IMG/VR virus record: IMGVR_UViG_3300030116_000265 | Location: 1-34,243 of that record | From: a virus | Direction: 5' to 3' (one strand) | DNA length: 34,243 nt | Part shown: piece by piece, positions 14,238 to 33,977 of the stretch | Layout of the letters: the number at the start of each line of letters is the position of its first letter | Position numbering within the stretch: position 1 is the first letter of the stretch | Program-made: the position numbers and the translations under genes | The notes under the pieces: model-generated | Told to the model about the DNA's origin: nothing | Database searches by the model: none | The model's input: only the letters and a program-made list of their open reading frames with translations

Positions 14238-14911
14238 AGGTAGCCATAGTTGGTCTTGGTGGCAGCTACGCTGACTATATGTCTGCGCGTATTGCCTCTC
14301 AAGAATTTGATGAGGTATGGGGCATAAATTGTATCGGCGCTGTTATACACGTTGATAAAACATTTATGATGGATCCTGTGTCTAGGTTTTTAGATACAGA
14401 AAACGCAGGAACACAAACAGGTGTTGCTCGTGAGTTTTTAAAAAAAAATAAAAACCCTATATACACTTGTCAGTTAGATGACAGAGTGGATCAATTAAAA
14501 CTGTATCCCTTAGAAAAAGTAACTAAAGAATTAGGTTATTGTTATTTTAACAATACTGTAGCTTATGCTGTTGCTTATGCAATTTGGAGTAAAGTTACTT
14601 GTATTTGTTTATATGGCATAGATTACACATACAAAAATGTAAGTATGGCAGAGTCTGGTAGAGCTTGTGTGGAGTTTTGGTGCGGTATAGCCGCAACTAA
14701 AGGGATTAAGTTGGAGATAGCGCATAGATCTAGCTTGTTAGACACAAATGTACCAGATAATGAAAAATTATATGGTTATCATAGATTAGATGATCCGCTT
14801 GTGCAAACAGTGCAAGATGGCAATTTAATGATTGTTAGACAATCAGAATTTAAATCGCCAGAGCCTATTGAACATGAACCTGTAATTTTTGGAAGGCATG
14901 ACAATGTTTGA
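14234..14911 (+). CDS. Rossmann-like protein, possible glycosyltransferase-fold enzyme
   Basis: The 225-residue protein starts MKVAIVGLGGSYADYMSARI, a beta-strand/Gly-rich-loop/helix unit. It continues with FDEVWGINCIGAVIHVDKTF and MMDP, and later has CLYGIDYTYKN and a helix ending in KGIKLEIAH. The order of Gly loop, N..D..F..DP and YGIDYTY loosely recalls the DUF115 and GT42 (sialyltransferase-type) folds. That is inference, and no catalytic residue is proven. I remember homologues in marine podoviruses at the same tail locus without function. It is odd for a soluble enzyme-like protein to be embedded in the tail operon. Confidence 0.7.
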   Translation: MKVAIVGLGGSYADYMSARIASQEFDEVWGINCIGAVIHVDKTFMMDPVSRFLDTENAGTQTGVAREFLKKNKNPIYTCQLDDRVDQLKLYPLEKVTKELGYCYFNNTVAYAVAYAIWSKVTCICLYGIDYTYKNVSMAESGRACVEFWCGIAATKGIKLEIAHRSSLLDTNVPDNEKLYGYHRLDDPLVQTVQDGNLMIVRQSEFKSPEPIEHEPVIFGRHDNV

Positions 14912-29459: not shown

Positions 29460-32440
29460 TGCAGGACTTTGAAGAGTTGCAAATAAGAAAAGCTCTTGAG
29501 TCTGGAAACCTTGATGCAAGAACAGAACTTGCAGCGAGAAAAGCTTTAGACTCTAACCCTGATGATGTTAGTTCAGTATTAGCAGCTTTATCTCCACAAG
29601 AAGATTATTCTGGAATCACTGATTTTAGAACAGGAAATCCCTTTGACTCTATACAAGTAAGTCAAAAAGCAACTGGGTTCAAAGGTTTTGCATCAGAAGA
29701 TGTAGACACGAAATCTGGCATACAAAACGCTGGACTCCGTGCAGAACTGTCTTTAGCAGAAACAGACGATGATCAAGTCGCTGTGCTGAGAAGTTATGGA
29801 CTGGATCAAACTGACTTTGCTCGTGACAATCGAGGTCGTTTAGCCGTAACGCCTGAAGGAGCAAAGAAGCTTGGCGTCAATACAGAAAAGCTGACTCTGA
29901 TTGATGAAGAAGGTTTTAGCATGAATGACCTATCTGACTTAGCTGGCATAGCGCCAGAAGTCATTGGTGCTGTTGGCGGTGCCATAACTGGTCAAGCACT
30001 TATACCCATTCCTATTCTTGGTGCAGCCTTAGGTGCTGGGTTTGGTGCTGGCGGAGGTCAAGCTGTTGAAGAAGTGTTTGAAGCTGTTCGTGGCACACAG
30101 ACACAGACAGATGAAGAAGTATTAAAAGACGTTGCTACAGAGGCAACGATAGGCTTCTTAGCTGATGCTACCTTTGGCGTACTAGGCGCTGGTATAAGGG
30201 GCGTAAGAGGCACTGTGAGGCCCGGCAAAGGGCTTTCTGATGAAGAGCTTAAAACTGTTGGCGAATCTCTTGAAGCAGGTATTGTTCCAAGCTTGGGTGC
30301 TATCAGAGCGCCAGCCCTTATAGCTAGACAACAAGCAATAGCTGAAAAGACGTTTGGAACGTCAAAGCGTTTAAAGAGAAACAACGAAATATTACAAGCC
30401 AAGATTGCAGATCTGAGAGCAAGAGTCGGCGCTGCCTCTGATGAAGAGGTCGGTGAGATTATACTCAACGCCACAGGTAAACAGGCTGCTGTCTTAAAAC
30501 AAGCTGAAAGAGAGGCACAAGAGGCAGTGCTTAAAACTCTTGATGACTTGGCGCAAGACATTGGTGCGGCGGCTGAAAGAAATGTTAATCTTGAACGTGA
30601 AACATTTGACATATTGACCAACGCACAAAAAACTTTTGATGATCAAATGAATGTTTTATTTAAGCCAATTGACGATGCGCTTGAATCTAGGATTGGAACA
30701 TCAAAAATTATCCCTGTGGGGAGAACCATAGAATTAGCAAAAGAGGCTGGAAAAAGAGAAGCATCTGGTATTGTCGCTGGAACAAGGCCGATGTTGAGAG
30801 ATGCAATTAATGCGGTCAACACATTAAAAAACACAGACTCTTTTCAACAAATATATACGACTAGAAAAACATTAAATGACATTCTAGCTAAATCTGATGG
30901 CCGTCAGGCTAAATACATATCCGAAATGATAAAAGAATTGGATAAACAATTAACAGTTGGAAACATAGACGATTTAGCTAGGTCAGCAGGTAAAAGCTTT
31001 GGTTCAGATGATTTTGATATATTGCGTAGAGCCAGTGAGAGGCTTGACACGGCTAGAGGTCAATATAAACGTGGAGCCGATATATTTGATCAACTTGAAA
31101 CTGCTGGTGTAATTAAAAGATTAAGACAAAAGACAGACAGAGGTGAGAGAATCAGCATTGATGATGTTCGTATGGAACGGATCATTAAAAATGATAAACC
31201 TGACGTTTTGTCTCGCACATTAAAAGCTGTAAGAATAGCGGCTGGCGGCTCTGGTAGAGAAGCGGATGCAGCGGCTGAACAATTTAGACAAAAGCTTGCT
31301 GGTGAGTGGTTAAGAGATGCTTTAGATAAATCAGGCATTAGTGCTTTAGATAATTATGCCCCAGAGACGTTTAAGGGTGCTGCTTTTGCTAGATCAATCA
31401 ATAATCTTGGACGCACAGCAGATGAGTTGTTTGGACCTGACGCTAATAAGATAAGACAGCTTGCAAAACAAATTGATCGCACATCTTTATCTAAAATGGA
31501 TCAAGCAACAGTTAGCAGAATACTGCAAGAGGGTGGGGATGAAAATCTTGTTGGTATGATGCAAGGTGTAGTAAATGCACAGAAACAAATATTTCAAGCA
31601 GACAACAGTGCCGCTTTCCAAAAGCTTGCGTCTGGCAGGTTAAACTCTGTTGAGGCCGCAGATCTCATAGCTCATAGATCAACCAGTGCAGCAGACATTA
31701 GTAAAATCGTTAAAAGCTTTGAAGGTGATCAAGCCGCGTTAGATAAGATACGCGGTAATTACATGGAAAGGCTGATTGAGGATTTTGGTGATGGCCTAAC
31801 TACTGACGGAAAAGCTCTTGGTGATTTTGCTAAACGCATATTAGACGCAGATGAAAGTGGAAAATTAAAAGCTATCTTCGATGAGGGCATGGCTGATGAT
31901 ATGGTGTCTTTTGCAAAGATACTGGAGTTTAATGCCAGAACTGTTAAAGGCGGTGACTTGGTTGCAGCCAACATTGCGGCAAGTCCTCTACAAAATTTAG
32001 ATAAGCTATTAAAGTTAAGTATTGTTGGCAGAGTATTCTCTTCTGGTGGATATTACGATGATATTCTGAAGCAGTATAAGAAACAGATCAAAGGTGAAAA
32101 TCCAGAGGAAAGAGCTAGAACTTTGGGCAGACTCATGTCTCAAGCTTTCACGAATGCTTCTATCCAAACTCCTCCACAAGTCATACAAGAAGGCGCTCGT
32201 GAAGCCGAAAGACAGATCTCATCTGTGATTGATAGCTCTGGCATAGGCGAACAATTGTCCGCGATACAAGGTCAAATGACTCAACCAAACGCAGCATCTG
32301 GTCTTGGATCAGTAAACGTAACACAACCCACAGCTCCAGCAGGAACCAGTACAATTCGACAGCAAGCAGCGGCGAATCCTGGTGTAGCTCAAGCTCTGGG
32401 AATAACAGGCTCTACAGCAGCCTTGTTGGGGAATCCATAA
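29459..32440 (+). CDS. Ejection (internal virion) protein D, 993 residues
   Basis: This is the largest protein of the window. The N-terminus has two related helices (QIRKALESGNLDARTELAAR). A glycine-rich hydrophobic stretch (EVIGAVGGAITGQALIPIPI then LGAALGAGFGAGGGQAVEEV, about residues 167-205) could insert into a membrane. The rest is long helices and coiled coil, without visible catalytic motif. The end is low complexity (AAANPGVAQALGITGS). This is the plan of the big ejection proteins that build a channel through the periplasm, such as T7 gp16 or P22 gp16/gp20, though no lytic transglycosylase domain is seen. TAATG joins it to the lysozyme. Confidence 0.78.
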   Translation: MQDFEELQIRKALESGNLDARTELAARKALDSNPDDVSSVLAALSPQEDYSGITDFRTGNPFDSIQVSQKATGFKGFASEDVDTKSGIQNAGLRAELSLAETDDDQVAVLRSYGLDQTDFARDNRGRLAVTPEGAKKLGVNTEKLTLIDEEGFSMNDLSDLAGIAPEVIGAVGGAITGQALIPIPILGAALGAGFGAGGGQAVEEVFEAVRGTQTQTDEEVLKDVATEATIGFLADATFGVLGAGIRGVRGTVRPGKGLSDEELKTVGESLEAGIVPSLGAIRAPALIARQQAIAEKTFGTSKRLKRNNEILQAKIADLRARVGAASDEEVGEIILNATGKQAAVLKQAEREAQEAVLKTLDDLAQDIGAAAERNVNLERETFDILTNAQKTFDDQMNVLFKPIDDALESRIGTSKIIPVGRTIELAKEAGKREASGIVAGTRPMLRDAINAVNTLKNTDSFQQIYTTRKTLNDILAKSDGRQAKYISEMIKELDKQLTVGNIDDLARSAGKSFGSDDFDILRRASERLDTARGQYKRGADIFDQLETAGVIKRLRQKTDRGERISIDDVRMERIIKNDKPDVLSRTLKAVRIAAGGSGREADAAAEQFRQKLAGEWLRDALDKSGISALDNYAPETFKGAAFARSINNLGRTADELFGPDANKIRQLAKQIDRTSLSKMDQATVSRILQEGGDENLVGMMQGVVNAQKQIFQADNSAAFQKLASGRLNSVEAADLIAHRSTSAADISKIVKSFEGDQAALDKIRGNYMERLIEDFGDGLTTDGKALGDFAKRILDADESGKLKAIFDEGMADDMVSFAKILEFNARTVKGGDLVAANIAASPLQNLDKLLKLSIVGRVFSSGGYYDDILKQYKKQIKGENPEERARTLGRLMSQAFTNASIQTPPQVIQEGAREAERQISSVIDSSGIGEQLSAIQGQMTQPNAASGLGSVNVTQPTAPAGTSTIRQQAAANPGVAQALGITGSTAALLGNP

Positions 32441-32886
32441 TGAACAAAGATAAGTTGCGCGAAGAAATCGCAGAAGATGAAGGGTGTAAATATGAGATAT
32501 ATTTGGATCATCTCGGTCTTCCTACTTGTGGAATTGGTCACTTAATAACTGAAGCTGACGAAGAGCATGGTAAGCCTGTCGGCACAGTTGTCGAACAGGA
32601 TCGTGTGCAAAACCTTTTTGCGTTAGACATGGCAGTGACGATTGACGAATGCAAAGTATTGTATCCAGACTTTGATGATCTGCCAGAAGAGGCACAACAC
32701 ATCATTTGCAATATGATGTTTAATATGGGCAGACCCAGACTCAGCAAGTTCAAGGGTATGAAGGCTGGCGTTGACGCTCGTGATTGGAACAAGGCAGCGG
32801 ATGAGATGGTGGACTCAAGATGGTACACACAAGTCCCTAATCGCGCACGGCGTTTGGTAGACCGCATGAGAGCGTTAGCAGACTAA
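32440..32886 (+). CDS. Endolysin, T4-type lysozyme (GH24)
   Basis: The 148-residue muramidase cuts the beta-1,4 bonds of peptidoglycan. The catalytic arrangement E14-8 residues-D23-5 residues-T29 matches the T4 lysozyme triad (E11, D20, T26), and GIGHLI follows at once. The C-terminal domain has EAQHIICNMMFNMGRPRLSK, then DSRWYTQVPNRARRLVDRM. There is no signal peptide, so a holin must release it, and the candidate is at 4288. Being the last of the ejection block, it could also be packaged in the virion. The stop overlaps the stop of the opposite-strand gene by 3 bases. Confidence 0.9.
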   Translation: MNKDKLREEIAEDEGCKYEIYLDHLGLPTCGIGHLITEADEEHGKPVGTVVEQDRVQNLFALDMAVTIDECKVLYPDFDDLPEEAQHIICNMMFNMGRPRLSKFKGMKAGVDARDWNKAADEMVDSRWYTQVPNRARRLVDRMRALAD

Positions 32887-33062
32887 TTACTCACAGCCGC
32901 AGAACCTAGTCCCCCCTGACCGTATTTCTTATCAAAAGCGTCAGCAGTTAACTTGGCTATTTGCTGGCGCACGTTCCTGTGTTCATCCTCTGAGAGCTTT
33001 ACCAGTTTGTTGTGAGTTGTTAAATCAACTGCAACCGACTTGAATTTAGTTGTGTCTGGCAT
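32883..33062 (-). CDS. Ribbon-helix-helix (Arc/CopG-like) DNA-binding protein
   Basis: The 59-residue protein, read right to left, has one beta strand (FKSVAVDL), helix A (THNKLVKLSEDEH), a turn (RN) and helix B (VRQQIAKLTADAFDKKY). This is the ribbon-helix-helix fold, where paired strands read the major groove. It is probably a transcription repressor of the early region. The ATG at 33062 has GGGA at proper distance. ATG 33077 would add five residues. It is the only well-supported gene on the minus strand and converges on the lysozyme. It lies beside a CCAT repeat array that is its likely operator. Confidence 0.8.
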   Translation of the reverse strand: MPDTTKFKSVAVDLTTHNKLVKLSEDEHRNVRQQIAKLTADAFDKKYGQGGLGSAAVSN

Positions 33063-33068
33063 TATACT
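33040..33068 (+). promoter_or_regulatory. Candidate rightward early promoter
   Basis: TTGAAT (33040-33045) and TATACT (33063-33068) are 17 bases apart, matching sigma70 in 4/6 and 5/6 positions. Predicted start is near 33075, inside the CCAT repeats. It would transcribe the nuclease gene at 33107. Confidence 0.5.
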
Positions 33069-33073
33069 AATTC

Positions 33074-33103
33074 CCATATTTAACCATTAATGTCCATATT
33101 TAT
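33074..33103. promoter_or_regulatory. Three 10-bp-phased CCAT repeats, probable repressor operator
   Basis: CCATATTTAA (33074-33083), CCATTAATGT (33084-33093) and CCATATTTAT (33094-33103) follow each other exactly every 10 bp, one DNA turn. The outer two share nine of ten bases. Ribbon-helix-helix proteins bind such phased half-sites side by side, and the gene for one starts 12 bp away. The array covers the predicted starts of both flanking promoters. Confidence 0.6.
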
Positions 33104-33126
33104 AACATGTACAACTATAAACGCAA
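33099..33126 (-). promoter_or_regulatory. Candidate leftward promoter for the repressor
   Basis: On the minus strand TTGCGT (33126-33121) and TATAAA (33104-33099) are 16 bases apart. The predicted start is near 33092, giving a leader of about 30 bases. The -10 overlaps the third CCAT repeat, fitting autorepression. The -35 match is modest. Confidence 0.38.
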
Positions 33127-33487
33127 GACAAACAAGTATGGTGCCAGGAAGACAACTTTCATGGGCATAACCTTTGATTCCAAGTGGGAAGCAGAGCGAT
33201 GGGGTGAGCTTACAGCTATGGAAAAAGCTGGGTACATAGTAGATCTGGAGAGGCAAGTGTCATATGATCTGGTGGTCAATGATCAAAAGATCTGTAAGTA
33301 TGTGGCTGACTTTAGATATAACAAAGTTGACGATTATGGAAATCTTGAACAGGTGGTCGAGGACGCAAAAGGTGTAGAGACTCAAGAGTTCAAGTTAAAA
33401 AAGAAGCTGATGAAAGCTTTGTTTAATATAGAAATTATTTTATCAAAAAAAAATAATAACAATTTTCTCAAAATACCCTTGACTTGA
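33107..33487 (+). CDS. DUF1064-type PD-(D/E)XK nuclease
   Basis: The 126-residue protein begins with NKYGARKTTFMGITFDSKWE at residue 9, AERWGELTAMEKAGYIVDLE, then CKYVADFRYNK and QVVEDAKGVET. The order FDSK.EA.R...L......G.I..LE, then DFRY, then EDVKG-like is that of the DUF1064 phage family. E28, D90-type and the E-x-K pair in EDAKG make a PD-(D/E)XK active site. Likely role is recombination or Holliday-type DNA cleavage. The start has no clear ribosome site, though ATG 33161 has AGGAAG but would lose the conserved start. The tail (KKNNNNFLKIPLT) lies over a run of nine A. Confidence 0.82.
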   Translation: MYNYKRKTNKYGARKTTFMGITFDSKWEAERWGELTAMEKAGYIVDLERQVSYDLVVNDQKICKYVADFRYNKVDDYGNLEQVVEDAKGVETQEFKLKKKLMKALFNIEIILSKKNNNNFLKIPLT

Positions 33488-33507
33488 AAAGATTGCATCA
33501 TTATCTT
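33479..33507 (+). promoter_or_regulatory. Candidate promoter for the recombination genes
   Basis: TTGACT (33479-33484; 5/6 match) and TATCTT (33502-33507; 4/6) are 17 bases apart. The -35 lies in the last codons of the nuclease gene. The predicted start is near 33514, inside the dyad described next. Confidence 0.5.
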
Positions 33508-33536
33508 CAGTTTATGTTTAGCGACATTAACTGAAG
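33505..33536. promoter_or_regulatory. 32-bp dyad overlapping the promoter start, probable operator
   Basis: CTTCAGTT (33505-33512) is the exact reverse complement of AACTGAAG (33529-33536). After one T/T mismatch, ATGT (33514-33517) pairs with ACAT (33524-33527). Twelve of thirteen arm positions match. The dyad covers the end of the -10, the predicted start, and part of the ribosome site GAAGGAG (33533-33539). Since transcription would start inside the left arm, a DNA operator fits better than an RNA hairpin. Confidence 0.55.
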
Positions 33537-33545
33537 GAGAAGGCG

Positions 33546-33977
33546 ATGAACGCTATTAGTCTACCGAATGATCTGACCGCTCTGTTTGACAAGCGCGAGG
33601 ATCTCAAATCTAAAATTAGTGATCTCCAAAAAGAACTGAAGATCGTAAACAAATCTCTACAAGATCAGTTTGAAGAGACTGCCAGAATGCAACTTGCTCA
33701 GCAAGGCAAGGATTTTGGTCAGACTTCTATGACCAGTGGTGAGTTCAAAGTTACTGTTGATTTCAAGAAACGTGTGGTTTGGGATGAGGCCACTTTGTTG
33801 CGCGTACTTGGTGCGATGGACGATGAGACTGCGCGTCATCTTGCTACTGTGAAATACAGTGTGGCAGAGGCTAAGTTCCAGAATGCAACACCAGACATCA
33901 AAGCAGCATTATCAGAGGCACGCACTGTGGAGTTGCAGGGCGTGTCTGTTGATATAAAAAGGAAGGAGGGCGAATAA
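33546..33977 (+). CDS. Conserved partner of the Sak4-like ATPase, function unknown
   Basis: The 143-residue protein starts with a coiled-coil helix (LFDKREDLKSKISDLQKELK, residues about 13-45), then has a beta part (GEFKVTVDFKKRVVWDEATL). The end resembles a conserved pattern (VKYSVAEAKFQNATPDIKAA, then ARTVELQGVSVDIKRK). I know this pattern from phages, beside P-loop ATPases of the Sak4 type, without settled function. A DNA-binding or recombination accessory role is inferred. AAGGAG is 6 bases before the ATG. It is coupled by TAATG to the next gene. Confidence 0.75.
   Translation: MNAISLPNDLTALFDKREDLKSKISDLQKELKIVNKSLQDQFEETARMQLAQQGKDFGQTSMTSGEFKVTVDFKKRVVWDEATLLRVLGAMDDETARHLATVKYSVAEAKFQNATPDIKAALSEARTVELQGVSVDIKRKEGE

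Follow-up and report, generated by a model that had tools for sequence, protein, structure and literature searches.

A conserved region of facing promoters and 10-bp-phased repeats, a candidate autoregulatory switch, beside a small leftward gene in a virus from IMG/VR

The window, by which we mean the whole stretch of DNA that was analysed, is a viral sequence of 34,243 nucleotides (IMG/VR record IMGVR_UViG_3300030116_000265). Towards its end a small leftward gene and a rightward gene of the DUF1064 type are separated by a short interval, where two promoter sequences face each other across three CCAT repeats. The features of the locus are as follows.

32440-32886, plus strand: convergent lysozyme gene, the 3′ end of which meets the end of the repressor gene
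32883..33062, minus strand: candidate repressor gene, 59 aa, MPDTTKFKSVAVDLTT..., start codon 33062-33060
33040..33068, plus strand: rightward promoter TTGAAT-17-TATACT from the promoter scan, -35 at 33040-33045 and -10 at 33063-33068
33074-33077, minus strand: CCAT unit 1, ATGG on the repressor-coding strand, overlapping the repressor ribosome-binding site (RBS) GGGA
33084-33087, minus strand: CCAT unit 2, ATGG, exactly 10 bp from unit 1
33094-33097, minus strand: CCAT unit 3, ATGG, 10 bp beyond unit 2, clade-specific
33099..33126, minus strand: leftward promoter-like sequence TTGCGT-16-TATAAA, read from the sequence with a weak consensus, -35 at 33126-33121 and -10 at 33104-33099
33107..33487, plus strand: DUF1064 / Holliday-junction-resolvase-like gene, the first gene to the right of the switch
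33479..33507, plus strand: second rightward promoter TTGACT-17-TATCTT, without an array, preceding a gene at 33546

The rightward promoter is embedded in the candidate repressor gene, with its -35 in codons 7-8 and its -10 abutting the start codon. The leftward site mirrors this arrangement, its -35 lying within the DUF1064 gene and its -10 just upstream of that start codon. In the window sequence the facing -10 elements are 30 bp apart and the transcription starts are predicted at about 33075 (rightward) and 33092 (leftward), a separation of 17 bp. The sequence-only reading had described face-to-face promoters over three phased repeats, and the sequence bears this out: the CCAT units begin exactly at 33074, 33084 and 33094, the rightward promoter is confirmed, and the leftward one is present in a weaker form, both being kept in relatives. 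The leftward site scores 8/12 on consensus, below the scan threshold of 9, and so does not appear in the scan list. The product of 33107-33487 matches PF06356 (DUF1064) with an E-value of 2.6e-15 and phrog_190, ‘Holliday junction resolvase’, with an E-value of 2e-30. At the other end of the locus the repressor and lysozyme genes overlap by four bases (32883-32886), leaving no space for a terminator between them.

Relatives of the 59-aa protein were sought in IMG/VR, where the protein as query gives 59 loci and an alignment as query gives 168. The loci used are the 59 plus the best 80 of the 168, many of these 80 on contigs already reached by the first search; counts are given as distinct sequences, which remain related by descent, many closely, so that the counts are not independent. 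The relatives share a conserved start and a KSV[AG][VI]D...RQQ core. No cultured homologue was found by tblastn in 50,697 phage records, nor were there near DNA matches. The capsid and portal proteins are closest to those of Pelagibacter phages HTVC023P and HTVC027P and of phage DSL-LC04, and more distantly like those of Roseobacter phages CRP-901/902. The inspected stretches of HTVC023P and DSL-LC04 carry no annotated equivalent of the 59-aa gene, and literature searches found no paper on the gene or the switch region. A 64-aa frame from 33077, inside unit 1, was rejected as the gene product: several relatives place its ATG 13 or 14 nt before the start, out of frame.

The rightward promoter, in the form TTG[TA]A[TC]-17-TA[TC]A[AC]T, is found in 48 of 50 distinct relatives and is retained down to relatives of about 42-48% protein identity. 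Among 45 distinct sequences examined, the 43 that bear the promoter all read TTC or TAC and then AAG at codons 7-8, with invariant third bases. In the genes of the window TTC makes up 21% of the Phe codons, TAC 34% of Tyr and AAG 35% of Lys; past codon 8 of the repressor genes TTC accounts for two of 28 Phe codons and AAG for about half of those for Lys. The Ser, Val and Asp codons adjacent to codons 7-8 show synonymous variation. Judged by this codon use, codons 7-8, which hold the -35, are constrained beyond the protein sequence, as expected for a working promoter. The two exceptions, L048 and L049, have codons CAT and AAA, and lack both the rightward promoter and the phased array. Both retain the gene, which begins with GTG and has a strong GGAGG site; they represent a natural contrast case.

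For the leftward promoter, TTGNNN-16-TA-type -10 (with a spacing of 17 in the L051-L060 clade) occurs in all 50 distinct relatives; the search pattern is loose, and a few sequences match it at a second place. Among the relatives displayed, CGC is the Arg codon beneath most leftward -35s; it represents 11% of the Arg codons in the window. On this comparative sequence evidence the interval 33040-33126 is a real, conserved regulatory region.

What is the array for? The window contains the triple CCAT pattern once, and 0 of 100 dinucleotide shuffles contain it, but the pattern was picked after being seen and the conservation tests therefore outweigh the shuffle test. NTGG pairs at 10 bp are present in 26 of 35 distinct intergenic sequences, against four at most for each other spacing from 6 to 17, and NTGG triples in eight of the 35. 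The comparison of the phasing in relatives, proposed in the sequence-only reading, thus upholds the first two units, whilst the third is clade-specific. Mean self-identity reaches 0.41 at lag 10 and 0.38 at lag 20, compared to about 0.29-0.30 for shuffles; other lags from 3 to 20 give 0.335 or less. Depending on clade, 13, 14 or 15 nt separate unit 1 from the start codon and, despite this shift, the spacing of units 1 and 2 stays at 10 in the clades that keep both. That the repeat block drifts by 1-3 bp, further in one clade, with respect to the start codon and the rightward -10, with its 10-bp period fixed, favours a protein-binding array. The pattern triple is also found once only in the 56-kb relative G001, there as in the window beside the 59-aa gene. 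G002 has two further triples that match the loose pattern (8214 and 8831); they lie away from its switch and are probably due to chance.

The units could instead serve separate purposes, with the promoters real and the repeats no operator: unit 1 and unit 3 (or its replacement) as the RBSs of the 59-aa and DUF1064 genes respectively, and unit 2 as part of the initial transcribed region. Unit 1 does hold GGGA, suitably spaced from the start codon. Other clades have GCCTTTA in place of unit 3; its complement contains AAGG, likely the RBS of the rightward gene, and in many relatives AAGG or GAGG stands here, just upstream of the DUF1064 start. Unit 2, however, overlaps no known signal, yet it remains 10 bp from unit 1 as the latter moves between 13 and 15 nt, and the preference for a spacing of 10 over any other also speaks against unconnected signals. 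In the L051-L060 clade, moreover, the array is shifted relative to the start codon, the period is still 10 bp, and the phased repeats (in L052 TTGGGTATAA ATGGGTATGG ATAGGTC) persist upstream of a separate GGAGG RBS. We regard the separate-signals explanation as unlikely. Two properties do count against an operator, namely that direct, non-palindromic repeats are an unusual site for a two-fold symmetric dimer, and that unit 1 also serves as an RBS.

The sequence-only reading assigned the 59-aa protein to the ribbon-helix-helix class by recognition. No curated model in Pfam, PHROGs or NCBIfam matches the window's protein over its cut-off; the best weak E-values, among its relatives, are 0.0039 for MatP_C, 0.18 for RHH_4, 0.19 for Arc and 0.013 for phrog_3180. 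The latter, an Arc-like family, is weakly matched by ten of 21 members. Alignment with hhalign against an Arc/Mnt alignment is weak (E-value 0.0087, probability 4.6%) and falls in the expected register. In scoring against the family profile, one of 500 shuffles outdoes Arc, five outdo Mnt and six outdo an Mnt relative; three further Arc-type proteins score weaker, one doing no better than 153 of 500. The best gapless placements of all six Arc/Mnt proteins share one register. A proline at residue 31 in L093 and L094 is in keeping with a helix that breaks where the ribbon-helix-helix turn would lie. Two AlphaFold2 models, made as monomers from shallow alignments, each give one long helix with mean pLDDT values of 67 and 70, and a Foldseek search with the first gave no PDB match; these modelled helices are mild evidence against a ribbon-helix-helix fold and do not exclude it. 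We call the protein, with some reserve, a probable Arc/Mnt-like ribbon-helix-helix dimer. Two other sequence relatives were considered and rejected. The omega repressor scores no better than shuffles, so that a match made by eye was dropped, and CopG is beaten by 121 of 500 shuffles.

If the array is an operator, is the 59-aa protein its ligand? A different protein, of host or phage, might bind the repeats, with the 59-aa gene merely one of its targets. Both the link of the protein to the array and its fold are putative. In the L105-L137 clade, where the gene and promoters are kept, unit 2 is changed to TTGTTAAC and the putative strand KYKSVAVD is not altered. On the other side, gene and array occur together across relatives, and in the window and G001 the triple is found nowhere else. 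Small phage regulators are, besides, often encoded next to their own operator. We judge another binding protein to be quite improbable.

The preferred reading is that 33040-33126 is an autoregulatory switch, at which the 59-aa repressor would act on the array to shut both promoters, and we hold this to be reasonably probable. The conservation in relatives of facing promoters with repeats one turn apart points to a small self-regulating switch for a replication gene. From the layout we infer promoter activity, polymerase exclusion, the fold, array binding, the direction of control and its timing. A host RNA polymerase of the sigma-70 type would initiate rightward into the DUF1064 gene and leftward into the 59-aa gene, such that the first 17 or so nucleotides of the opposing transcripts would overlap. 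A bound polymerase extends from roughly 55 bp upstream of its start to 20 bp beyond it and, with the starts so close, only one polymerase is probably bound at once. The collision of polymerases suggested in the sequence-only reading thus gives way to mutual exclusion, which the overlapping footprints make likelier than a clash of elongating enzymes. The rightward promoter, being the stronger, would prevail early in infection, with some leftward transcription yielding the 59-aa protein. Its dimer would then occupy the ATGG units, which are spaced by one helical turn and lie over or beside the two starts, and turn both promoters off. The outcome would be an early pulse of expression of the rightward gene and a repressor that limits its own production. 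The earlier proposal of control over rightward early expression would apply in so far as the promoter drives the DUF1064 gene directly; it cannot simply be extended to the genes beyond, which have their own promoter at 33479-33507.

The closest known layout is that of coliphages 186 and P2, in which the switch has face-to-face promoters and the Apl sites are direct repeats 10-11 bp apart, Apl repressing both promoters (PMC7498355). By sequence, the locus described here resembles the Apl/Cox arrangement in having facing promoters with one-turn direct repeats between and overlapping them, and a small protein acting on the repeats to repress both promoters is what we propose by analogy. There are differences. 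The 186 phage has seven Apl sites compared to the two or three units here, and in the P2 group the promoters are 40-60 bp apart, whereas here the predicted starts lie within 17 bp and the transcripts overlap. The 186/P2 switch has a separate immunity repressor; no second repressor is seen at this locus. Apl and Cox have a further role at att, next to the integrase, as recombination directionality factors, and no integrase was found in 14 contigs of the present group. In a library search of Pfam, PHROGs and NCBIfam profiles the 59-aa protein has no significant match to Apl or Cox.

Promoters that face each other across one-turn repeats typify the P2/186 lysis-lysogeny switch (PMC7498355), and the 59-aa protein might accordingly be a lysogeny repressor in a temperate immunity switch, as opposed to a regulator that times lytic growth. 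The lack of integrase speaks against this, extending as it does to the two contigs of 56 and 58 kb, although contigs may be incomplete, and the view in the sequence-only reading of an otherwise lytic phage is supported in this respect. Nor was a relative of the 59-aa protein, and hence a prophage copy, found in GTDB genomes, a search in which short queries miss distant relatives. A lysogeny switch thus appears very unlikely.

With respect to the protein, the closest system is Arc/Mnt of phage P22, to which the similarity of the 59-aa protein is weak. The P22 immI region likewise has a small leftward repressor gene (here for a probable ribbon-helix-helix protein) beside overlapping promoters of opposite direction. 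The P22 promoters, however, are back to back (P_ant at 14793-14821 on the plus strand, P_mnt at 14798-14826 on the minus strand) and not face to face. There are two repressors in immI, Mnt and Arc, and the target is the antirepressor gene ant, whereas here there are direct repeats and the target is the DUF1064 gene. A third comparison is with the omega repressor of pSM19035 (PDB codes 1irq and 2bnw), a small ribbon-helix-helix protein that acts on short direct-repeat arrays in its own and other promoters. We propose, by analogy, a short direct-repeat array at the gene's own promoter. Omega uses heptad repeats in place of the 10-bp spacing observed here and there is no significant sequence similarity. 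The switch may work like that of P2/186, and the 59-aa protein may be a distant member of the Arc/Mnt class. A tentative extension, to which we give slightly less than even chances, is that in a marine phage lineage a P2/186-like layout was reached independently by a new, Arc-like family of small repressors that times lytic growth without an integrase.

Little is known about gene timing in the phages of marine bacteria that have not been cultured. Frames of at least 80 aa in the two longest relatives examined, G001 (56 kb) and G002 (58 kb), nearly all run in one direction and the repressor gene opposes them; the opposite frames are few, at least one of them antisense to the lysozyme gene and spurious. 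A repressor gene set against near-unidirectional genes makes the conserved switch a good candidate for a control point. The comparison leads to testable predictions: the starts should lie about 17 bp from each other, and function should require units 1 and 2 but not unit 3. If these hold, an arrangement in the style of P2/186 would occur, with a different regulator, in a phage group without signs of lysogeny.

The second rightward promoter, as TTGAC[AT]-17-TA-type -10, is present in 43 of 46 distinct relatives, and no phased pairs occur in its region among the relatives examined. Since a conserved promoter free of an array serves the genes beyond DUF1064, the switch cannot simply be taken to govern all early genes. 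Just past this promoter, at about 33513-33526 on the plus strand, lies ATGTTTAGCGACAT, with GTATCTAGCGATAT also seen in relatives. The short arms around TAGC in this element change together, as TGTT/GACA and TATC/GATA. The element is present in 23 of 46 distinct relatives and may be a small hairpin at the 5′ end of the transcript or a palindromic protein site. In the L051-L060 clade TAGGTTATGTATGCCTATATTGTAGGTATC, after the DUF1064 gene, spans the second promoter; two copies of TAGGT occur in it, along with one near complement. This sequence is similar to the ATAGGT unit of the array in that clade and might be a second operator.
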